Shown here: positions 23,982 through 54,932 of the stretch, piece after piece
Layout: the number at the start of each line of letters is the position of its first letter
Position numbering within the stretch: the first letter of the stretch is position 1
Assembly: GCF_026314945.1 (NCBI RefSeq)
Contig: NZ_CP111121.1
Span: 744,001 to 808,000, forward strand
DNA from: Chryseobacterium fluminis
GTDB taxonomy: Bacteria > Bacteroidota > Bacteroidia > Flavobacteriales > Weeksellaceae
Length of the DNA: 64,000 nt
Direction of reading: 5' to 3'
Program-made: the position numbers and the translations under genes
The notes under the pieces: generated by a model
Told to the model about the DNA's origin: nothing
Database searches by the model: none
The model's input: the letters and a program-made list of their open reading frames with translations, nothing else

Positions 23982-24887
23982 TTATTTTACCAGATCCGGT
24001 TCTATCGGATTATTATTTTTAGCTAAAGATTCTTTCGTTTTTTTCTCCATCTCTCTGAACATCTGACTAGGATCTGAAATTTCCTTTCCGTCTGAAGTTT
24101 TTACCTTAAAGGACATTTTTGTGTTATCGCCCCCGCTGTTTCTCATCATCATTTCTCTCATATTTTTTGACGGATCATTCACATAGGCTTTCCAGACTTT
24201 TCGGTACTGATCTTTGCTTATTTCCAGTTCTTTTCCGCCAATTCCCACAATTTTTAAATTTCCCGTTATTCCGGATTCCGTCTCCACTACCGGACTATCT
24301 ATTTTCCTGTTTCCGACCAAAGTCATGATGTGACTTCCCGTTGTATCTTCAAGCTTTACGATGAGCCCCGGAAGTCCGTAAAATTTATAGGGACCGTCCT
24401 GAAAGGGAATCGCTGTACTGAACCAGGCGATCCATTCTCTTCCCCCGTAAGTGGTAGTTGCCTTCTGAGTATCGTATTCCCCGATTTTCTGCTTTTCCGC
24501 AAGGATTTTCCATTCCGGTTTCTGATCCTCTTTTACTTTATACAGGTCCATAGAAACCCTTGTAAAAAGGAAGGTTTTAAACTCGGGATATTCTTTAGTC
24601 ACTTTATAAGATACCTGCCCTGCCCTTTCGTTTCTGGTAACATTAAGGCTTCCTGAACCGCTTTTAATTTGCCTGCGGATATCTGCCATGGATGTGGAGT
24701 CTGCTATAAACCGGTCTCTGCTGTAGTAAATGGATCCTTTTTCGTCGATATCCAGATACATCATTTCTTTTTTTACATCTTCTTTATGATTGGAGTCGGG
24801 AATAAATCTATAGTCGTAATAAAACCGGTTGACCTGTGCATCAGCAAACATGCTCAGGAAGATTAAAAGAAATAGAATATTTTTCAT
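23982..24887 (-). CDS. GLPGLI family secreted protein
   Basis: A 301-residue protein of the Bacteroidota GLPGLI family (function unknown). Signal peptide residues 1-17 (MFADAQ). The diagnostic stretch is REWIAWFSTAIPFQDGPYKFYGLPGLIVKLED. It lies 61 bases after the M56/BlaI pair on the same strand, with a hairpin between, so it may be partly co-expressed with it. Two further GLPGLI genes in the window (48661 and 52429) have the same core WIAWF...GPYKF...LPGLI but are shorter and pair with small peptides; this one has no small peptide gene next to it. Confidence 0.9.
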   Translation of the reverse strand: MKNILFLLIFLSMFADAQVNRFYYDYRFIPDSNHKEDVKKEMMYLDIDEKGSIYYSRDRFIADSTSMADIRRQIKSGSGSLNVTRNERAGQVSYKVTKEYPEFKTFLFTRVSMDLYKVKEDQKPEWKILAEKQKIGEYDTQKATTTYGGREWIAWFSTAIPFQDGPYKFYGLPGLIVKLEDTTGSHIMTLVGNRKIDSPVVETESGITGNLKIVGIGGKELEISKDQYRKVWKAYVNDPSKNMREMMMRNSGGDNTKMSFKVKTSDGKEISDPSQMFREMEKKTKESLAKNNNPIEPDLVK

Positions 24888-24948: not shown

Positions 24949-26823
24949 TTATTTTTTGGTCTGAATCTGAATTTTACCTGTTACTGCACCTCCGTTTGTC
25001 GAATTTTTATTTACGGTAACAGAAGATATCTGGTCCGGTTTCAAAGCATCCATTTCCTGTTTGGTAGATTCTTTACCGTCAATAAAAATCTTCATATCAT
25101 CACCGTTCATATTGTTTATACTCGAAAGGATAATGGCTTTTTTATCACTGTTCATCGTATAATTATAATTGGTGTTGATTTTTTTAAACTGATCATCAGG
25201 AAAATTTTTGAATGTATTGTTCCCGTACATATACACCCTGCCGCGATCCCCTTCCAGAACTCTTCTTTCAGCTTCCAGCTTCGCCCTCTGCCCGTCCAGT
25301 TTTGCTCTTTTCTGATCTAATTTTGCTCTCTTCCGGTCGAGTTCGGCTCTTTTCTTTATGCTGGCAGCAGATCCTTTTGCCTGTTCGGCTGATCTGTAAA
25401 CCATATCGGCTTCAGGAGTCCACTTCATATCCTTCATGTCCTTAAATTTATATACTTTCAGCCTCGATGCGTCGGGTGCTTTGGGAGCATCCGGATAGCC
25501 TGGCGGCGGCGGTGGAGCATCCGGGAAATCAATATTTATTTCAGGAATATCCGGCATATAGATGTTCATTTCTTCCAATCCTTTTACTTTATCTTTCCAT
25601 TCTTTAGATTTGAAATAATCATTGATATTCACATTTTTGCCATCCATCCGAATGACCATTGCAGATTTAAGAAAATCCTGAGAACTGGCAATTTTCCCTA
25701 TTTCACCGGATAACTTCCCTATTTCTTCAAGACTTTTACTGTACTCCTTACTTTCAGGACTGAAATTTTTGAGAGCTTTACTCTGCTCTTGGATTTTTCT
25801 GTTGAGATCAGCAATCTTTTTGTCATCATCCGCTCTTTTATATTTCGGAGTTACCACAGCATCCTGTTTTGACGGCTCCGGAGTGATGGTATCCTGTTTT
25901 ATTTTGTTTTTCCCGTGAATCTGAAAAACAGCTTTCTCAATCTCCGTATTCGTTTCTTTAATTTCCGTATTCTTAGCATTTACCAGATAGGCAAAGGCTA
26001 CTGAAAATAATACCGGTAACGCAAAAATTCTACGCGCATATCCGAATTGGGTTTTAGGCTTTTGTAACATTTTAAGTCTTTTTTTAAGGTTTGAACTTAG
26101 AAACGGACTGGTCGCAGGCAACTGTGTTCCGGAAAAGTGGCTTGCTAAAAGCATCTGCGCAAATGCTTTTGTGTCCGATTGTTTTACGGCTTTTTTATCA
26201 GCCAGATATTCGTGAATTAAATTAATTTCTTTTTTAATGATATGAAAAAAAGGATTGAACCAGAAAACAGAGGTAATGATCTCGATCATGATCTTATCCA
26301 ATGAATGTCGCTGCTCAATGTGTACCATTTCATGCTTTAAAATCTGCGCCCCTACTTCCGAATCCAGCATAATGGAATTCTTCCAGAAAAGGTTTTTAAA
26401 GTAAGAGAATGGCGCTTCCGATAAGTTGGTACGGTAAAAGTTAATACCGTTAAAACTTTCTTTTTGAAACTGCCTCTTAAGCTTATGAATCTTAAAGACC
26501 CCAAAAATGAATTTTCCTACAAAATAGAGAGAAACCAATCCCAAAGCTGAAAAAATACTCTGAAAATAAATGTAATCATTGTTATCTTTTTTATGGATGT
26601 TAAAATTCTGTACATGGTCTATCAGTTTATACCAGTCACCACTTACCTCGATGGTGAAGTCTTCTACCTTTATCAAAGGAAGCAGCAGCGATATCAACAG
26701 AGCAGATAGCAAATAAAATCTGTTATAATGATGAAATGTCCTGTCTTTTAAAGACAACTGATAGTACAGAAACATTACACCGGAACATAGTATTACTTTT
26801 CCGAAATACAGAATTGCTTCCAT
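24949..26823 (-). CDS. M56-family BlaR1-like membrane metallopeptidase
   Basis: Signal-transducing membrane protease of the BlaR1/MecR1 type that senses an outside stimulus and leads to loss of the BlaI repressor encoded next to it. N-terminal membrane helices (residues about 7-20, 37-55, 93-110) surround the zinc site HEMVHIEQRHS, followed by YLADKKAV. A further helix (FALPVLFSVAFAYLVNA, about 268-285) leads to a periplasmic part of more than 300 residues. That part has a Lys/Arg-rich coiled coil built of RAKLDQK-type heptads and ends with MKIFIDGKESTKQEMDALKPDQ-like plug-domain sequence instead of the penicillin-binding sensor. It starts 3 bases after blaI. Confidence 0.92.
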   Translation of the reverse strand: MEAILYFGKVILCSGVMFLYYQLSLKDRTFHHYNRFYLLSALLISLLLPLIKVEDFTIEVSGDWYKLIDHVQNFNIHKKDNNDYIYFQSIFSALGLVSLYFVGKFIFGVFKIHKLKRQFQKESFNGINFYRTNLSEAPFSYFKNLFWKNSIMLDSEVGAQILKHEMVHIEQRHSLDKIMIEIITSVFWFNPFFHIIKKEINLIHEYLADKKAVKQSDTKAFAQMLLASHFSGTQLPATSPFLSSNLKKRLKMLQKPKTQFGYARRIFALPVLFSVAFAYLVNAKNTEIKETNTEIEKAVFQIHGKNKIKQDTITPEPSKQDAVVTPKYKRADDDKKIADLNRKIQEQSKALKNFSPESKEYSKSLEEIGKLSGEIGKIASSQDFLKSAMVIRMDGKNVNINDYFKSKEWKDKVKGLEEMNIYMPDIPEINIDFPDAPPPPPGYPDAPKAPDASRLKVYKFKDMKDMKWTPEADMVYRSAEQAKGSAASIKKRAELDRKRAKLDQKRAKLDGQRAKLEAERRVLEGDRGRVYMYGNNTFKNFPDDQFKKINTNYNYTMNSDKKAIILSSINNMNGDDMKIFIDGKESTKQEMDALKPDQISSVTVNKNSTNGGAVTGKIQIQTKK

Positions 26824-45897: not shown

Positions 45898-46251
45898 ATG
45901 TCATCTGAGAAAGAATTATTAAAATTACTGTTACCGGAATATCTGGTTGAATACTTTGATATTACCCATTTTGAAGAAAAAGAAGGATTGCTTCATCTTT
46001 ATTTTGAGGAAAAAAATACTGTTCCCAAAGAGCTTTCCTCTTTGCATCTACAATCCAAAGGCTTTCATGAAGAAATCACGGTTAATGACTTTCCTCTCCG
46101 TGGAAAACCTGTAAAACTTCACATCAGACGAAGAAGATGGACCGATATAAAATCTGGTAAGATCCTGCAGAGAGACTGGAATCTCATTGCCGTTGGAACC
46201 CGCATGACAAAGGACTTTGCGGAGTTCTTAAAAAAAATCAGCCGATACTAA
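45898..46251 (+). CDS. ISAon1-type transposase N-terminal region protein
   Basis: 117 residues; the first half of the split transposase of the IS at 45847-47247. It reads LKLLLPEYLVEYFDITHFEEKEG and RRRWTDIKSGKILQRDWNLIA, the helix-rich N-terminal region that precedes the catalytic part in this family. The stop follows EFLKKISRY. An A8 run (46229-46237 region) near its end, in TTCTTAAAAAAAATC, is a slippery sequence; losing one A joins this frame to the next ORF, reading on as SADTKALPLETIGEMYG. Confidence 0.88.
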   Translation: MSSEKELLKLLLPEYLVEYFDITHFEEKEGLLHLYFEEKNTVPKELSSLHLQSKGFHEEITVNDFPLRGKPVKLHIRRRRWTDIKSGKILQRDWNLIAVGTRMTKDFAEFLKKISRY

Positions 46252-46279
46252 AGCCCTTCCCTTAGAAACCATCGGTGAG

Positions 46280-47224
46280 ATGTATGGGGTACAGGGAAAG
46301 ACATTCCGCAGGCAATACAAAAAATCATTAAGCGGGTTCAAAGACTGGCTCCAAAAGCCCCATGCGGAAGATTGGATTCTTTATCCGGAAAATTGCTCCT
46401 CTTCTCTGTCTCTGGATGAAGTTGCTCTTTCCCAGGGAGAATTATACACGGTTCTTACTTCCAAAAAAGCAAAAGGCAGGAAAGGCAGTATTGTTGCCAT
46501 TATCAAAGGTACACAGAGTGAAGAGGTCATTGAGCAGCTTCTGAAAATAAACAGGAAGCTTCGCAAAAATGTAAAGGAAATTACCCTTGATATGGCCGGG
46601 TCTATGAAGCTTATTGCCAAACGCTGTTTCCCTGATGCTATTAAGGTCATAGACCGGTTCCATGTTCAGAAGCTCGCCACTGAAGCCCTTCAGGAATTAA
46701 GGATCAACTACCGTTGGGAAGCTATAGAATGGGAAAATAGCCTGCTCGATGAAGCAAAGAAAAACAGGGAGCCTATTGAGATAGAAACGTTTGAAAACGG
46801 TGATACCCGCAAACAGCTTCTGGCAAGAAGCAGGTATTTACTCTACAAAAGCAGGGAAAAGTGGACGCCTTCTCAAATGCAGAGAGCTGAAATTTTATTT
46901 ACAGAATATCCTGATTTAAAGAAGGCATATGGGTTATCGGATGGATTAAGAAAGATTTACAATCAGAATATTCCCAAATCTATTGCCATGACAAAGTTAG
47001 CGCATTGGTTCAGGGATGTTGAAACATCAGGTTTTAAATCATTCTCAGTTTTAAGAAAAACAATAATGAATCATTACAGCGGCATCTTAAACTTTTTCGA
47101 CAGAAGAAGTACCAACGCTTCGGCAGAATCTTTTAATGCTAAAATTAAAAACTTCAGATTACAGCTTCGGGGAGTAAAAGACAAAGCATTTTTCCTGTTC
47201 AGACTCTCTCAACTTTTTGCATAG
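46280..47224 (+). CDS. ISL3-like DDE transposase, catalytic part
   Basis: 314 residues with the DDE_Tnp_ISL3 pattern. The catalytic Asp lies in VKEITLDMAGSMKLIAKRCFP, the second Asp in KVIDRFHVQKL and the Glu in TNASAESFNAKIKNF. The ORF begins before its first Met in an open frame that meets the upstream ORF at the A8 tract, so the full enzyme of about 440 residues needs a +1 shift or transcript slippage. The stop overlaps the right inverted repeat by one base. Confidence 0.92.
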   Translation: MYGVQGKTFRRQYKKSLSGFKDWLQKPHAEDWILYPENCSSSLSLDEVALSQGELYTVLTSKKAKGRKGSIVAIIKGTQSEEVIEQLLKINRKLRKNVKEITLDMAGSMKLIAKRCFPDAIKVIDRFHVQKLATEALQELRINYRWEAIEWENSLLDEAKKNREPIEIETFENGDTRKQLLARSRYLLYKSREKWTPSQMQRAEILFTEYPDLKKAYGLSDGLRKIYNQNIPKSIAMTKLAHWFRDVETSGFKSFSVLRKTIMNHYSGILNFFDRRSTNASAESFNAKIKNFRLQLRGVKDKAFFLFRLSQLFA

Positions 47225-47316: not shown

Positions 47317-47326
47317 CATATTTTAG

Positions 47327-47399
<73 letters not shown>

Positions 47400-47879: not shown

Positions 47880-48188
47880 CCTGAATCCTCTGGATCTTCA
47901 TATTTCCAGGTATAACTGCTATCGCGCATTCTTTTAAATTAATCTAAAAATCAGGATATAATTCTTTCTCAGGGTTTCTGGATAATAATAAAAGGTCTCC
48001 GGCTTCTACTTTATGTTCTTTAATTTTGTTATGAATCCCCTATTGTAATGGGAAAAAAGTAAAATCCCATTTATGAGTGTGAAACTTGTCTTTCCAATAT
48101 ATTCTTGGAATCTCTCTAAGCAGCAATTTATCACCATCTAAAATTGCATCTACTGAATTGCTATTTCTTCGTTTGTATATTCTGCCAT
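47880..48188 (-). pseudogene. Remnant of an S24/LexA-like repressor
   Basis: From the minus-strand ATG at 48188 (MAEYTNEEIAI) the frame breaks, then in the next frame reads SVDAILDGDKLLLREIPRIYW and IKEHKVEAGDLLLLSRNP with LYPDF, in the order of the C-terminal catalytic domain of Bacteroidota S24-type phage repressors (ILxGDxLLxREI ... IKxHxVExGxIxxHSxNP ... YxDF). Several stops interrupt it. It lies where a phage repressor would be, divergent from the first peptide gene. Family match is by eye. Confidence 0.5.
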
Positions 48189-48284
48189 TCCAATTATATT
48201 AAGAGGTCAAATATAAAATTATTCTTGAATATTTGAAACATTACGGGAACCACTAATTTTCTATTAACATTTTTTACACATATG

Positions 48285-48292
48285 CAAATGTA
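48285..48292 (-). promoter_or_regulatory. Minus-strand -7 box in copy A
   Basis: TACATTTG, 97 bases upstream of the decayed repressor's ATG; its twin in copy B (52044-52051) is 98 bases from the corresponding ATG. Confidence 0.45.
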
Positions 48293-48381
48293 AGTAGTAA
48301 AGACACTTAACATAAAAAAATAATTCTCACATACATAGAATTATTGAGTATATTGGAAACGATTTTATTAAATACAGTATT

Positions 48382-48588
48382 ATGAAAAAAACAATTTTAT
48401 TAGGAGCTATTTTGTTAGCTGGTGTTGTTTCAGCATTTCCATTCCGAACATCTTGCGGTGTAGTATTACAGGTGAATGAAGCTGGTATTGATGGAATGTC
48501 ATATGGACAAGTTGTAAACACGTTAAAATTAATGAATGGCATTACTTGTGGTACAACAGACGTTGGTATTGTAGTTTACAATCACTAA
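48382..48588 (+). CDS. Small secreted two-cysteine peptide, copy A
   Basis: 68 residues. Sec signal peptide of 18 residues (ILLGAILLAGVVSA), then a mature peptide of 50 residues starting FPFRTSCGVV. Two cysteines, Cys25 and Cys56, could form one disulfide. It matches the peptide at 52152 at about half of all positions, with FPFRTSCG, MS, Q, NG and both cysteines kept at exactly the same numbers. A GLPGLI gene follows after 72 bases and a hairpin. No double-glycine leader. Function not known; it could be a signal, toxin or adhesin-type peptide. Confidence 0.82.
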   Translation: MKKTILLGAILLAGVVSAFPFRTSCGVVLQVNEAGIDGMSYGQVVNTLKLMNGITCGTTDVGIVVYNH

Positions 48589-48610
48589 TTAAATTTAACA
48601 AATGATTTTG

Positions 48611-48643
48611 GCAAAATGCGGAGTTATCTGCATTTTGCTTTTT
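48611..48643 (+). terminator. Hairpin between peptide A and its GLPGLI gene
   Basis: GCAAAATGC pairs with GCATTTTGC followed by TTTTT; partial termination here would give more peptide than GLPGLI message. Confidence 0.7.
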
Positions 48644-48660
48644 AATTAAAAATACAAACA

Positions 48661-49446
48661 ATGAAGTTATATTATACATTGATTTTAGTTTTTTTTGTCG
48701 CACTCATTAAAGCACAAATTGGATTTGATGTTGTTTATGAAGCTGATTATAAGCTAACATACAAAGATCAGACTGTTAATGCAGTAACGCAGGAAGATGC
48801 TTTCGCTCTATTAATAAATGAAAAAGAGTCATATTATAAGAATATGAAAAAATATATTGAGGATTCTTTAAAATTTGAAAAAAAATTAAATGATAAGTCT
48901 GATTTTAGACTTGGAATGAAGTACGCGACAGATTTTTCAGAATACATTGGTACAACTAGTGGAAAACTATATGTAACAGTTCCCGTATCAAATAAAGCTT
49001 TTAAATATGAAGAAGTAAATAATATTGATTGGTGGCTTTCAAATGAATCCAAAAAGATAGGTAAATATAAATGTCAAAAAGCCGTTTGTAAAAGGTATGG
49101 CAGGACTTGGATAGCGTGGTTTACAAAAGAAATACCTTTTCCTTTTGGTCCTTATAAATTTAATAAATTACCAGGACTTATTTTAGAAGTTTATGATGAT
49201 AAAAAGGACTATGTTTTTTCAATGTATAGTTTCCGAAAAAGAAAATATTTTGCTAAATCTGCAAATATGGAAGCGAAAGCTACCCCCGTTAAAAAATCAA
49301 AAATTTTTGACTATCAAAGAAAGGAGATTGCAGATCCCAACACTTATAATAAATTAGTTACTGATGCTGAGACACTTCGTTTTTTAATGAAAAAAGCTCA
49401 GGAAAGAGCAAAAAATTACAATCCTATTGAACTAAGTATAAATTAG
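48661..49446 (+). CDS. GLPGLI family protein, cassette copy A
   Basis: 261 residues with signal peptide (residues 1-19, ALIKAQ). The conserved block GRTWIAWFTKEIPFPFGPYKF then NKLPGLILEVYDDKK has Leu-Pro-Gly-Leu-Ile with GLP changed to KLP. It begins GFDVVYEADYKLTYKDQ, almost the same as the start of its paralogue at 52429 (KFDVVYEADYKLNYK). C-terminal KAQERAKNYNPIELSIN also matches it. It is intact among pseudogenes. A role linked to the peptide upstream is inferred from the repeated pairing. Confidence 0.9.
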   Translation: MKLYYTLILVFFVALIKAQIGFDVVYEADYKLTYKDQTVNAVTQEDAFALLINEKESYYKNMKKYIEDSLKFEKKLNDKSDFRLGMKYATDFSEYIGTTSGKLYVTVPVSNKAFKYEEVNNIDWWLSNESKKIGKYKCQKAVCKRYGRTWIAWFTKEIPFPFGPYKFNKLPGLILEVYDDKKDYVFSMYSFRKRKYFAKSANMEAKATPVKKSKIFDYQRKEIADPNTYNKLVTDAETLRFLMKKAQERAKNYNPIELSIN

Positions 49447-49515
49447 GATTTTCATGGTTATTAGTTTAAAGTACCTCTTTAAAAGATGCTTTTTTACGGG
49501 CTGTAATCTTTTTTT

Positions 49516-49790
49516 TCTTCTAAAAATTTAGAATAATCTTCGGCAAGTTCCGCATCAATATCTCGTCAATATACTTTCACTGCCTTTAATGTTGTGGCCC
49601 GGTAACTTTCATCAATAAATCATATGTTTCAAGCTCCGTTCTTTCCTTTCTCAACTCCCGGAATAACTTTGTAATAAATGTATGTCTGAACGAACAGATT
49701 GTATATTCTTCGCCCAAATTGAATTTATCCTTGATTTCTTTGAATTTTGCAGAAAAATTATTTCTTCGATTTACCTCTTTTGTCTGAATG
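49516..49790 (-). pseudogene. Tyrosine recombinase C-terminal fragment, copy A
   Basis: Reads TKEVNRRNNFSAKFKEIKDK and EEYTICSFRHTFITKLFREL, with the R-box His kept, then LMKVTG and a one-base deletion (compared with copy B) that destroys VTGHTTLKAL. The frame after the catalytic Tyr region has the same TGA stop seen in copy B. About 15 differences from copy B over about 275 bases by eye. Confidence 0.88.
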
Positions 49791-49945
49791 CCTGTTTTAA
49801 GTTTATATAAAATACAGTTAATAATCTCACAAATAGGTGCTTTTGATTTGAAACCTCTTTTCCAATTGGAATATAAGGTGCAATTTCTAATTCTATTGTA
49901 TCTTTGCTTAGTACTTGGTACAAGGGATAGGATTTTTTTTGTTTA
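49791..49945 (-). pseudogene. N-terminal fragment of an IS transposase
   Basis: On the minus strand: SYPLYQVLSKDTIELEIAPY then KRGFKSKAPICEIINCILYKLKTG with one frame shift, matching the first residues of Bacteroidota IS5/IS1182-type transposases (ELEIxPYIPxxKRGFxxKAPIxEIIxxILYKLKTG). It is joined at GIQT to the integrase fragment, so a deletion or recombination has fused the two. Confidence 0.6.
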
Positions 49946-49999
49946 GCGGCACTAATTTCCTAATCCCTTTTTTTATAGCAAACAACTAATCTATTTTTT

Positions 50000-50305
50000 T
50001 TTTAATAAGTCAAGATCACTTCATAATCTGATAATTGTCGCTTTGGCAATTATTGGAGTATTTTTTGCGGGGCATGTTCAGAAACTTTATATAGTGCTGT
50101 TTTTATTTCAACGGCCTTTATTGCTTCTTTTTTCTTCTATAAGAAAACTTTTCCCTTCATTATTATTGGTTTAGGCTTTTTCTGGTATGCTATTGTGGTA
50201 GATATCTGGAATGGTTACGATTTCTACAATCCAGATGGTACACGTTTCTCGTGGACGGTTGGAAATGTCCTGATCTCAATAGGCCTCATTTTATTGTTGC
50301 TTTAA
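50000..50305 (+). pseudogene. Small membrane protein, frameshifted (phage lysis region)
   Basis: NKSRSLHNLIIVALAIIGVF in one frame continues after a single shift near 50090 as SAVFISTAFIASFFFYKKTF, FIIIGLGFFWYAIVVDIWNG and GNVLISIGLILLLL. Three or four membrane helices, no clear ATG. Its place just before a lipoprotein and a muramidase suggests a holin-like role, as inference. Confidence 0.55.
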
Positions 50306-50342
50306 GAATATTTTCCAAAACAATATAAAAAAATATTTACCG

Positions 50343-50955
50343 GTGAAACTGATAAAAATACTGATCATTAGTGTTGTTTTCTTAGGCTGCAAAACAAAAA
50401 CCGTCACTCAATCCAAATCAAAGGAAATTGAGCAAAATGAATATTCAAAAACTATTTCTGAGGCAGATAATGAAGTTTTTACAAATAAGAAGGAAGAAAT
50501 TAATGAGACTAAACTCGATAAACATACAGAATAAAACCAAACGGATATTGACATTGAGGGTGAAACTGAAATTGATAAACCATCTGAAATGCAGGTCATT
50601 AAGGAAGGAGGCGCAAAAAAGTATCTTAAAATATCGGGTAAAGCAAAGTTCACTTTCAAATCAAACGAAAATTCAAAATCGGAGAAAACCGAAGGAAAAA
50701 GTAAAAAAAGCTCAGAAAATCAACAGCAAAACTCTAAAAATAATAACCTCATGGAAAAAGGTGATAATTCCAGGATTAAAAAAGTTGATGAAAAAAACAG
50801 AAAAAGGTCAAAGGTTGCAGTTCGGGGCTTATTCCATAATTATCATCTGGGGATCTATCATTATTATTTTGATTGCATTTTTTCTTTGGTTTAGAAAAAC
50901 AGAATTATTCAGAAAAATATTTAAAATAAAAATCGATGAAACAACAAATAATTGA
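50343..50955 (+). pseudogene. Phage-type lipoprotein with C-terminal membrane anchor, broken
   Basis: GTG at 50343 starts a lipoprotein signal (KILIISVVFLGCKTK, Cys16). An in-frame TAA at 50532 follows KLDKHTE; the same frame then reads NQTDIDIEGETEIDKPSEMQ and KYLKISGKAKFTFKSNENSK. A frame shift near 50810 leads to GAYSIIIIWGSIIIILIAFF and FRKTELFRKIFKIKIDETTN. The layout (lipid anchor, Lys/Glu-rich middle, TM helix) recalls Rz-type spanins; that name is inference. It overlaps the start of the muramidase gene. Confidence 0.6.
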
Positions 50956-51496
50956 TTTAACAAAAAAAGTCGCAGCGGAGTTTGGATTTGAGCTTGCTGT
51001 CATGCTTTCTTTTATTGAAGTAGAAACCGGAGGACAAGGATTCGACTCTAAAACAGGAAAAATCATGATCCAGTTTGAACCTTCCTGGTTCAAAAAAAAT
51101 GCTCCCTACGCCCCGTCTGGTAAATGGTCTATCAATAAGGTAGATATTCAAACAAAAGAATGGGAGGCTTTTAATGATGCTTTTGCTAAAGATAAAGATG
51201 CAGCAATGAAAAGTACTTCAATTGGCCTTTCTCAGATTTTAGGCATACATTACAAAAGATTAGGATTTGCTTCCGTTGGTGACATGTGATCATGCAAAAG
51301 TCTCTTTGAAAAATCAGATCTGGCAACTGGCAAAATTCATTGATACCGATAGGAACTTGAAAAATGCTATTCTGGAAAAAGATTGGTTTACCATTGCTAA
51401 AATTACAATGGATCAGGTTTTTTGAAGATAGCAAGACAGTACGGCCGAGAACCGCATAATATCAGCATGGAAAAGGCATACAAACGTTATACTTAA
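50936..51496 (+). pseudogene. N-acetylmuramidase (phage endolysin), frameshifted
   Basis: Begins MKQQIIDLTKKVAAEFGFEL and continues VMLSFIEVETGGQGFD (catalytic Glu in EVETGG), IMIQFEPSWFKK, YAPSGKWSINKVD, STSIGLSQILGIHYKRLGF, all signature stretches of the N-acetylmuramidase (DUF3380) family. The frame stops at 51289, but the rest remains in other frames: VSLKNQIWQLAKFIDTD and ARQYGREPHNISMEKAYKRY. Two or more shifts therefore broke a gene of about 185 residues. This is the clearest phage-type gene of the region. Confidence 0.85.
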
Positions 51497-51502
51497 TAAT
51501 CA

Positions 51503-51946
51503 TTACTTTTGATTATGTCGCCAATGAATAAATTTGCTCGTAGACTGAAGATCACTTTTAAACCATAAATCCATGTCTTTTAAAAGCTCTGCGTTTTCTT
51601 TAGACATGATCACACTATTTTTAGAAAGTTGATTTTTATATTCTTTTATGGCATTTGCTTTAGATTCTTCGATTTTGGAGAAAACAAAAAAGAAAACCGT
51701 AAAACTAACAATAAGCATAGCAAAAGATGATATCCACAAATAGAGGCTTAATTTTGGTACTTTAATTCGGGAATTTAGCTGATTAATATTTTCTTCAGTC
51801 TTTTCCTTGTAAAATGAATTTATGTAGCTTAAATCTGGCTCTATCTTTAATGTTTTAAGCTCAACAATTTTATACTCAAGTTGAGTAATGGCTTGTTCAA
51901 TTTAATGAGAAATTCTTTCTGTGTCATTATTTGTATTGTCTGCCAT
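51503..51946 (-). pseudogene. Coiled-coil membrane protein with early stop
   Basis: From ATG 51946 the frame reads MADNTNNDTERISH and hits TAA at codon 15, then stays open in the same frame to 51503: a coiled-coil part (AITQLEYKIVELKTLKIEPD), one membrane helix (WISSFAMLIVSFTVFFFVF) and a polar tail. The layout resembles small mobilisation-type membrane proteins of Bacteroidota elements, not certain. A frame from TTG at 51739 would be open but lacks a good start. Confidence 0.6.
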
Positions 51947-52043
51947 TTTTAATTATTTAAGATGTCAAATATAAAATTTATTCTTTAATATTAAGCATTA
52001 CGGAAAACCTTATTTTTTTTTAATAGCATTTTTAGTATCTATG

Positions 52044-52051
52044 CAAATGTA
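52044..52051 (-). promoter_or_regulatory. Minus-strand -7 box in copy B
   Basis: TACATTTG on the minus strand, twin of the box in copy A; would drive the coiled-coil membrane protein gene. Confidence 0.45.
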
Positions 52052-52151
52052 ACAAACAAAGGGACTTAACATAAAAAAATAATTCTCACTATATTAGATT
52101 TATTTTTTATTTTGAGTCTAATTAATAACTAATTTTTAAAAAAAGACAATT

Positions 52152-52361
52152 ATGAAAAAAGCAATTTTATTAGGAGCTTTATTTGTAGCAGGTGTAGTTT
52201 CTGCTTTCCCTTTTAGAACATCTTGCGGAAAAGTTATTCAAGTTAGCCAAACAATCGCTAACCATATGTCAATGGATCAATTGGCAAATTATCTTGGTGA
52301 CGTTAATGGTGAGCAATGTCCTGGATCTGGGGCTGTAGTTGTTCGCATCTATTATCACTAA
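52152..52361 (+). CDS. Small secreted two-cysteine peptide, copy B
   Basis: 69 residues. Signal peptide ILLGALFVAGVVSA cut before FPFRTSCGKV; mature part 51 residues with Cys25 and Cys56, the same numbering as copy A. The middle (VSQTIANHMSMDQLANYL) and C-terminus (AVVVRIYYH) differ from copy A more than the ends do. It is followed by a hairpin and the GLPGLI gene. Intact, with its own upstream region. Function unknown. Confidence 0.82.
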   Translation: MKKAILLGALFVAGVVSAFPFRTSCGKVIQVSQTIANHMSMDQLANYLGDVNGEQCPGSGAVVVRIYYH

Positions 52362-52380
52362 GAAATTAAGAAAAATGTAT

Positions 52381-52408
52381 GACCGCCATAAAACGTGGCG
52401 GTCTTCTA
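52381..52408 (+). terminator. Hairpin between peptide B and its GLPGLI gene
   Basis: GACCGCC-ataaaacgt-GGCGGTC followed by TTCTATTTT. Same place as the copy A hairpin but unrelated in sequence. Confidence 0.7.
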
Positions 52409-52428
52409 TTTTAGAAAAGAATATTACA

Positions 52429-53208
52429 ATGAAAAAGATTCTATTATTATTTCACTTACTAATTGTTATTGTCGTTTTTTCACAAAAAAAATTTGATGTT
52501 GTTTATGAGGCGGATTATAAGTTAAATTATAAGCTATCGACGGGAAGCAATTCTAAAAAAGAGACCACTTTTGCCCTTCTTATCAATGAAAACTCTTCTT
52601 TTTTTAAAGATCTACATAGATATATTTCTGATTCTCTCCTCGTTGAAAAAAAACTGAATACGATTGAGGAAGCTATGAAATATAATACAGATTTTCGCGG
52701 TTATGTTGGAACAACATCAGCAAAATTATATGTAACAGATGAAATCAATTACACATATTTTGCTTACGAAGAACCCAATAACATAAATTGGAAAATTAAA
52801 AATGAATTTAAAACTGTCGCAGGATATAAATGTCAGAGAGCAGAGACAACAAAATATGGCAGGACTTGGATCGCTTGGTTTTCAACTGATATCTCTTTCC
52901 CGTTTGGGCCATATAAATTTAATGGGTTGCCTGGTTTGATTGCTGAAGTATATGATACTAAGGATGAATATCATTATACACTCTATACCTTTAGAAAAAG
53001 AAAATATACCTGCAAATCGGCCAACGTTGCAACCAATGTCAAAAATTTATCCAAAGAAAAAGTAGCTGAAGTTTTCAAAAATAGGCTTGCCGGGAAACTA
53101 AGGTTGAATGAGCAATATATAGAAAATGCGGAAGATCGTGAATATATGAGGCGAAATGCAGAAGAAGCATTAAAAAAATATAATCCTATTGAGCTGAATA
53201 TTTATTAG
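52429..53208 (+). CDS. GLPGLI family protein, cassette copy B
   Basis: 259 residues from the ATG at 52429; the frame is open from 52339 but earlier Mets would overlap the hairpin and lack a signal peptide. Signal peptide ILLLFHLLIVIVVFSQ, then KFDVVYEADYKLNYK, the core GRTWIAWFSTDISFPFGPYK and NGLPGLIAEVYDTKDEY, and a C-terminal EALKKYNPIELNIY. It matches copy A throughout. Intact. A terminator follows. Confidence 0.92.
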   Translation: MKKILLLFHLLIVIVVFSQKKFDVVYEADYKLNYKLSTGSNSKKETTFALLINENSSFFKDLHRYISDSLLVEKKLNTIEEAMKYNTDFRGYVGTTSAKLYVTDEINYTYFAYEEPNNINWKIKNEFKTVAGYKCQRAETTKYGRTWIAWFSTDISFPFGPYKFNGLPGLIAEVYDTKDEYHYTLYTFRKRKYTCKSANVATNVKNLSKEKVAEVFKNRLAGKLRLNEQYIENAEDREYMRRNAEEALKKYNPIELNIY

Positions 53209-53228
53209 GATCATGGTATTAGTTGGAC

Positions 53229-53255
53229 AGCACCTTTTCAAGAGGTGCTTTTTTA
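53229..53255 (+). terminator. Terminator after GLPGLI copy B
   Basis: GCACCTTTT-ca-AGAGGTGC followed by TTTTTT. The corresponding stretch after copy A is degenerate. Confidence 0.75.
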
Positions 53256-53275
53256 TTGGCTGTCATCTTCTTTTT

Positions 53276-54420
53276 CTTCTAAAAATTTTGAATAATCTTC
53301 GGCAAGTTCCGCATCAATATCTCGTCAATATGCCTTCAATGCCTTTAATGTTGTGTGCCCGGTAACTTTCATCAATAAATCGTAAGTTTCTAACTCCGTT
53401 CTTTCCTTTCTCAACTCCCGGAATAACTTTGTAATAAATGTAGGTCTGAACGAATAAATTGTATATTCTTCGCCCAAATGAAGTTTATCCTTGATTTCTT
53501 TGAATTTTGCAGAAAAATTATTTCTTCGATTTACCTCTTTTGTCTGAATCCCCTTTTCATTTGTTTTAAAAATGAGTTCATTGGGATCACCAAATTTCAT
53601 TTTTTCCAGATCTTTCAATAAGATGTTCGGAATCAGCTTCGTTTTAAATGGCTTATTTTTAGCTTTAACCCATAAGTAAGGCTGGTTTGCTCATTTATTT
53701 TTAGATCGTCGAATTTTAGCCTCACTACTTCAATAGGACGTAAAAAATTATAACTCACAAATTGAATGAACAATAATAAATTTTCATCCTTTGAAATTTC
53801 TTCAAAAAGTGTCTCTAATTGTTCGCTTGAATAAGATTAATTTTTTTTTGGCGTGGAGCTTTGGTTCCAATTTCTTTGATGAAATCATCTTTGATCATTT
53901 CGTTTCTTTCCAGAACATCAAAAAGAAAAGATAATGCTACTTTGTGATTATTATGCGATTTCCCTGAATTTTTCAATATTATTTCATTTAGATAATTCAA
54001 AGCGTACTTTTTTGGAAATTCATCTGCAGCAATAACATCATATCCATTTTTCTCAAGATATTTAATAAATTGGTTTTTTTTGACCGGAAATCTGGAATAC
54101 AGGTTTCTGACAAAGTAGCCTCTTATTTTATACATCCATTCAATTGAACTTTTGATCGTAGATTCATCTTTCAAATCTTCACTCGGATATGGAGAATAAC
54201 CTTTTTTCAATAATTCTGCAAGACTTTTTCTGATTGCTTTCAGTCTGGCCAACCTCTCTTTTACCGTTGTATAGACCCTAATTGACATTCATGTAAATTG
54301 GGGCTGTCTTTTCATCTTCCCAGTTTTCGGATCTGCGTGAGAGTATTAAACGTACTATCTTTGAGAAAGATCATAGTCCTGTCCGCCGTGATAAATCTTC
54401 GGTAGTTTATAGGGTACGTT
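53276..54420 (-). pseudogene. Tyrosine recombinase (phage/island integrase), broken
   Basis: Pieces in order on the minus strand: N-terminal arm VRLILSRRSENWEDEKTAPI (about 54300-54370), SAM-like core-binding domain in 53815-54288 (IRVYTTVKERLARLKAIRKS ... SHNNHKVALSFLFDVLERNE), a degraded middle, and the catalytic part in 53325-53618 with SFRPTFITKLFREL and VTGHTTLKALKAY. The R-box HxxR has Pro for His, and TGA follows AY, after which RDIDAELAEDYSKFLEEKED continues. At least three shifts or stops. It lies beside the tRNA-fMet array, the expected place for an island integrase. Confidence 0.9.
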
Positions 54421-54501: not shown

Positions 54502-54524
54502 CATTTATATTTTAGAAATCTTAG

Positions 54525-54597
<73 letters not shown>

Positions 54598-54635
54598 GTG
54601 TATCTTTAGAGTGCTTACCGAAAGCACTGTCTTAG

Positions 54636-54708
<73 letters not shown>

Positions 54709-54747
54709 GTGTATCTTTAGAGTGCTTACCGAAAGCACTTATCTTAG

Positions 54748-54820
<73 letters not shown>

Positions 54821-54859
54821 GTGTATCTTTAGAGTGCTTACCGAAAGCACTTATCTTAG

Positions 54860-54932
<73 letters not shown>

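Follow-up and report, generated by a model that had tools for sequence, protein, structure and literature searches.

What does a GLPGLI protein do when a small secreted peptide is encoded directly in front of it? This question is raised by a 64,000-nucleotide stretch of the Chryseobacterium fluminis genome (contig NZ_CP111121.1, positions 744,001 to 808,000; hereafter "the window"), which contains two modules of one plan (48382-49813 and 52152-53573), each consisting of a gene for a pre-peptide of 68-69 residues, a hairpin, a GLPGLI gene and integrase-like debris. The portions of the GLPGLI papers available to us name no function for the family, and they state neither a link to peptides nor a dedicated peptide partner. 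An earlier reading of these letters (hereafter the original prediction) proposed that the two genes form a two-gene system, and the comparisons presented here bear this out: the peptide-GLPGLI pair is a real, selected and mobile two-gene system. As to what the system does, we give an even chance to a bacteriocin-like peptide accompanied by a bowl-fold GLPGLI immunity protein.

Association of the peptides with GLPGLI genes

Peptide 1 (48382..48588, + strand, 68 amino acids) and peptide 2 (52152..52361, + strand, 69 amino acids) both open with a signal-peptide-like start followed by AFPFRTSCG, and both have the Cys25 and Cys56 that were originally described along with the shared FPFRTSCG; peptide 1 ends in His and peptide 2 follows the same plan. 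Their downstream partners, GLPGLI 1 (48661..49446, + strand, 261 amino acids) and GLPGLI 2 (52429..53208, + strand, 259 amino acids), score 141.8 and 154.1 bits against TIGR01200, for which the curated cut-off is 50, and also exceed the curated cut-off of PF09697 (Porph_ging). A search for the FPFRTSCG peptide found 46 places in 38 of 173 genomes of the same genus; at two of these places (L075 and L076) the peptide is of a different type and has a pro-region. A GLPGLI frame lies directly downstream on the same strand at all 46, broken in L055 and L068. For a second peptide family, which mostly bears a double-glycine leader, a GLPGLI gene follows at 52 of the 52 places examined (30 examined first, 20 fetched later and 2 from the window's genome) and is broken in 3; matches with E-values above about 1e-5, many covering the leader only, were mostly left out of this set. 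A profile search of 246 genomes of the bacterial family gave matches in 28, belonging to 4 of 33 genera, and all 17 loci inspected (7 new, 10 repeats of the 46 places) have a GLPGLI gene. The same is true of all 20 loci obtained from named genomes (19 loci, one in Riemerella anatipestifer) and from a viral collection (one locus), many of which repeat the 46 places. The peptide family is thus found with GLPGLI neighbors.

The association was also examined from the side of the GLPGLI genes. By a mechanical rule, a small leader-bearing cysteine peptide lies upstream of 24 of 111 GLPGLI genes vs 0 of 274 other genes, a pairing above expectation. The first figure is a lower bound, since the rule misses the real peptides of L006, L016, L029 and L160; the set excludes L128 and L153, which have no central GLPGLI gene, and includes L066, which was fetched via its peptide (23 of 110 without it). 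The original prediction went too far, however, in giving every GLPGLI protein a small secreted peptide as its neighbor. Of the 35 GLPGLI genes in the window's genome, 34 were inspected, and about 14 of these have a peptide, 10 by the rule and 4 by eye (L006, L013, L016 and L029), some of them broken; the remaining match lies in a frame of 559 amino acids. A tree of 95 GLPGLI proteins places 29 of the 35 with a peptide label in one part of 37 rows, alongside 8 unlabeled ones; it was made quickly, has long branches and labels assigned by rule and by eye, and is used for broad grouping only.

Selection, joint inheritance and patterns of gene loss

Both genes are under purifying selection, as the intact frames of the window had suggested. 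For GLPGLI, the median omega (ratio of nonsynonymous to synonymous rates) is 0.08 where the synonymous distance (dS) is computable, and for the mature peptide the pooled proportions of nonsynonymous and synonymous differences are pN 0.19 vs pS 0.68 over 94 close pairs, which are not independent and in many of which dS is saturated. The distances of mature peptides and GLPGLI proteins are strongly correlated (r 0.84 over 39 pairs, Mantel p 0.0005), and those of RecQ correlate with the mature peptide and with GLPGLI at only 0.05 and 0.08 (p 0.17 and 0.08). Peptide and GLPGLI alleles travel as a unit, and the other neighbors of the pair change from site to site.

The two modules of the window were originally described as a duplicated cassette. 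They are indeed two copies of one plan, but a recent tandem duplication is ruled out because divergence in the coding parts far exceeds that in the decayed flank. At the DNA level the mature peptides are 55% and the GLPGLI genes 59% identical (54% and 49% between the encoded peptides and GLPGLI proteins), as opposed to 90% for the dead flank behind the GLPGLI genes, where the debris at 49452-49813 and 53211-53573 is alike (86-91% identical). The modules are old alleles, and it fits better that their cargo was exchanged or that related elements carrying different cargo came in successively.

Lesions in the pair bear on its possible roles. Among 96 loci of both peptide families, both frames are open in 79 (counting L278, with a shortened leader, as open), both genes are broken in 3 (L055, L068 and L271) and the start is unclear in 3 (L013, L078 and L087). 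A broken peptide accompanies an intact GLPGLI gene at 9 loci (L050, L059, L074, L091, L100, L104, L264, L270 and L277), and the reverse is seen at 2 (L088 and L272). The peptide is four times smaller, so if lesions fell in proportion to length it would take only a fifth of the single ones (binomial P 1.7e-5), and the bias from finding all 96 loci via the peptide opposes an excess of peptide-only lesions. The peptides that the search pattern did not match were sorted by eye; beside an intact GLPGLI gene these were 20 of the second family and 3 of the first, and beside a broken one 3 more. The retention of GLPGLI after loss of the peptide fits the prediction for an immunity protein and not that for a chaperone. 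Outside these counts, locus L151 (genome G012) has a GLPGLI gene that belongs to the FPFR branch and has no open peptide frame with it, and an FHFTTSSGKV stretch upstream of it may be a peptide remnant.

The second peptide family adds information on the export route. Its kind of mature domain (TSCG...TTTQDW...W...C) stands behind a Sec signal and a basic pro-region at L274 and L279-L282; a more distant example is L014, and at L016 the example is broken. Whichever of the two leaders the peptide carries, the accompanying GLPGLI genes group in a single clade (support 100/99), and the tree calls for 3-4 changes of leader type, of which the strongest branches alone force only one. To find one kind of mature peptide on different export leaders is unusual. 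As the leader type changes while GLPGLI stays, GLPGLI belongs to the mature peptide and not to the export route, which makes a role as export partner, one of those originally envisaged, unlikely. As to a possible homology of the FPFRTSCG and QDW peptide domains, profile comparisons with hhalign gave a probability of 6% when the FPFR set was compared with the double-glycine set, 47% for the WTxxTSCG set against the double-glycine set alone and 70% when two Sec-leader sequences were added to the latter, and 35% and 28% for the combined FPFR and WTxxTSCG sets against the double-glycine sets without and with those two sequences.

Possible function of the pair

The peptide family has nine invariant columns among 39 aligned members (M, K and K at the start; the F-R and C-G positions within FPFRTSCG; the later Cys; and a Tyr close to the end); the middle is variable, and the core ends in His in 37 of the 39. 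The predicted fold, a beta hairpin plus helix (predicted local distance difference test score, pLDDT, 80), has no meaningful match among solved structures, and the window peptides match no model in Pfam, NCBIfam (E-values up to 1), PHROGs or PADLOC. The model of GLPGLI 2 (pLDDT 91) matches best the N-terminal bowl domain of PNGase F-II (PNGF-II), over most of that domain and with 13% identity, followed by LolA and RseB. The two window proteins score 23.8 and 17.7 bits against the corresponding family PF22252, below its gathering score of 27.6; the model shares the bowl fold, and membership in PF22252 is not claimed. The available part of the report on PNGase F-II describes the bowl as one domain of an enzyme, with unknown function (PMC9522356). 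LolA and RseB/MucB share only 5-13% identity with the model, with Z scores close to the unspecific range, and have no partner gene in common with the GLPGLI pair.

Class II microcin-like bacteriocins are small double-glycine peptides that are exported by a C39 ATP-binding cassette (ABC) exporter, kill relatives of the producer and have an adjacent immunity gene. Their leader is present in the second peptide family and absent from the window peptides. Three double-glycine peptides preceding GLPGLI genes, the three of the second family that were tested, match NF047798, a model of Chryseobacterium leaders named bacteriocin-like protein in NCBIfam (30.3-36 bits, cut-off 23.5); the leader of this model is the usual one of the second family, and the window peptides, which start with a Sec-type signal, do not match it. 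The bacteroidetocins, as far as the accessible part of their description goes, are small cysteine peptides of Bacteroidetes with a double-glycine leader, a C39 transporter and a thiol oxidoreductase (PMC6671954); they differ from the window peptide, with its two cysteines and Sec signal, in having four cysteines, no immunity protein and a different sequence. Because the leader tests of known families fail, the window peptide is not filed as a member of a bacteriocin family, and it may nevertheless work like one.

Under the immunity interpretation, the first gene would give a small pre-peptide whose Sec signal is presumably cut off behind SA. The mature peptide would then have about 50 residues (FPFRTSCG...C...IxYxH) and probably a single disulfide between Cys25 and Cys56, and it would act outside the cell as a bacteriocin of narrow range. 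A leaky terminator between the genes would keep the peptide message in excess of the GLPGLI message, and the second gene would supply a secreted, probably periplasmic, bowl-fold protein that binds its cognate peptide and shields the producing cell. The two partners would evolve in step and pass jointly from strain to strain, in part on prophages and on elements borne at transfer RNA (tRNA) genes.

The original prediction left open whether the peptide is a signal, a toxin or a ligand, with GLPGLI serving its export, maturation or immunity. The lesion pattern favors immunity over maturation, signal or ligand. One alternative, which we consider unlikely, is that GLPGLI is a dedicated chaperone or maturation factor whose bowl holds the peptide during folding, oxidation or trimming and hands it on as LolA does lipoproteins. 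The predicted LolA-like fold, the presumed attenuation of the second gene and the GLPGLI genes that also follow SPASM peptide maturases would all suit such a factor, but it should decay once the peptide is lost, and its greater length should bring it more lesions; the reverse is seen (9 vs 2). There is a rather slim chance that the peptide is a strain-specific signal and GLPGLI a periplasmic sensor or carrier comparable to RseB/MucB. The modeled RseB/MucB-like fold and the diverse, co-inherited alleles agree with this; however, in the 20 loci with long flanks there is no recurrent regulator or kinase neighbor, and the one gene cluster besides GLPGLI that more than 5 of them have in common is a divergent membrane protein (6 of 20).

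That the pair is prophage cargo altering the envelope, for example to exclude other phages, appears improbable. The window, L192 and L208 do have phage genes close to the cassette, and one contig of the viral collection carries the pair, but in many other loci no phage gene was recognized by eye, the island DNA is without a match in phage records, no defense model or annotated phage family matches, and the existence of the double-glycine family suggests that the product leaves the cell. A chance neighborhood of an abundant gene family, to which the 7-35 GLPGLI genes in each of seven genomes of the same genus might lend some appeal, is refuted by the counts (46/46 and 52/52 vs 0/274) and by the recurrence of the same pair with different neighbors at different sites.

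Several points weigh against the immunity interpretation as well. Linkage explains part of the co-variation of peptide and GLPGLI, given that the signal-peptide part also correlates with GLPGLI (0.30). The lesion test assumes independent loci and depends in part on visual sorting, and a further role of GLPGLI could also keep the gene after loss of the peptide. The many GLPGLI genes without a peptide imply another task for part of the family, which may be the reason for its retention. The mature peptide matches no known bacteriocin domain, and no defense model matches; in addition, the Sec signal of the window peptide leaves the crossing of the outer membrane to be explained.

More tentatively than for the window pair itself, we suggest that a GLPGLI branch forms a superfamily of bowl-shaped partners that are secreted and probably confer immunity, each serving a single peptide among many of a "CG-helix-C" type, and that these peptides spread on mobile elements and swap leaders (Sec, Sec with a basic pro-region, double-glycine) while keeping the mature domain and partner. 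A dedicated peptide partner offers a direct, testable handle on the role of a GLPGLI branch and could hint at the purpose of the orphan bowl domain of PNGase F-II. If the pair is a toxin with its antidote, these loci would offer a large number of as yet unexploited antibacterial peptides of narrow range, together with the resistance proteins that match them.

The island in the window and other genomic settings

The hairpin in the gap between the two genes lies at 48611..48638 in module 1 (+ strand; terminator-like, with a 12-bp stem containing one mismatch and a T run; z -4.9) and at 52381..52403 in module 2 (+ strand; T-rich tail; z -5.0). A stem with a T-rich tail is present in 40 of 41 pairs, L059 being without one; its sequence varies among subfamilies and its position is constant. 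Folding is stronger than that of shuffled sequences (mean z -3.8; z below -2 in 38 of 41). The 41 pairs are the 46 places less L050, L055, L060, L068 and L074, and they include L046, for which a wrong frame was taken, and the differing peptides of L075 and L076. Such a hairpin should yield more peptide message than GLPGLI message. Upstream, a TAnnTTTG promoter box occurs in 21 of 37 family members vs 5.2 in shuffles, and the exact box is in neither window copy.

The location of both modules inside a decayed prophage-like island is confirmed: both pairs are open, and between them lie a cut phage endolysin (N-acetylmuramidase; 50936..51289, + strand; PHROG 1224, E-value 1.5e-21) and a 78-amino-acid piece of a divergent membrane protein whose frame is open in other loci (51503..51739, - strand). 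The integrase-like debris (49452..49813 and, in several pieces, 53211..54288, both - strand) was labeled by eye from its resemblance to a tyrosine recombinase, for which Pfam gave no support with the pieces of copy 2. Genes for tRNA-Met flank both modules (47326-47399 and 54524-54932), and the G+C content of the module stretch is 29-32%, compared with 32-42% in the remaining blocks of the window. Just upstream of the island is an ISL3-family transposase in two frames (45898-47224, + strand; PF01610, E-value 6.9e-52; zinc ribbon below cut-off).

Elsewhere, the phage genes near the cassette comprise a baseplate hub in L192 (E-value 3e-61) and weak tail-protein matches in L208, and in C. culicis (L191) the pair and an integrase-like piece, recognized by eye as of the kind found in the window, lie at a tRNA-Met array. 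A C39 ABC exporter and an HlyD-like protein precede the cassette in L193, the only locus with a C39 exporter beside the cassette; the window's genome has seven C39 matches, six of them in open frames of 702-770 amino acids. The divergent membrane protein mentioned above, a coiled-coil protein of 144-165 amino acids (for example at L192:9268-9765, - strand, and in L193 and L204), has no Pfam or PHROGs match and is possibly a third gene of the cassette. In three species (L194, L196 and L206) the cassette sits at apparently the same site, adjoining a gene that we take to be the exosortase XrtF.

GLPGLI genes also occur in other company. A third GLPGLI gene of the window (24189-24884, - strand) lies behind a gene at 24949-26823 (- strand), presumably M56/BlaR1-like, and similar pairs occur in four other genomes (L135, L158, L167 and L181); it has the look of a housekeeping branch without a peptide. 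At L008, L023 and L024 of the window's genome, GLPGLI genes directly follow grasp-with-spasm SPASM maturases (TIGR04193, above cut-off). Some members of the family therefore belong to other peptide loci, and GLPGLI genes may be common in loci of modified peptides; no SPASM maturase was seen by eye near the window cassette or in the inspected flanks, where no profile search was made. At L021 and L161, in two genomes, GLPGLI lies behind a 491-amino-acid protein with membrane and thioredoxin-like parts and a weak disulfide-isomerase match.

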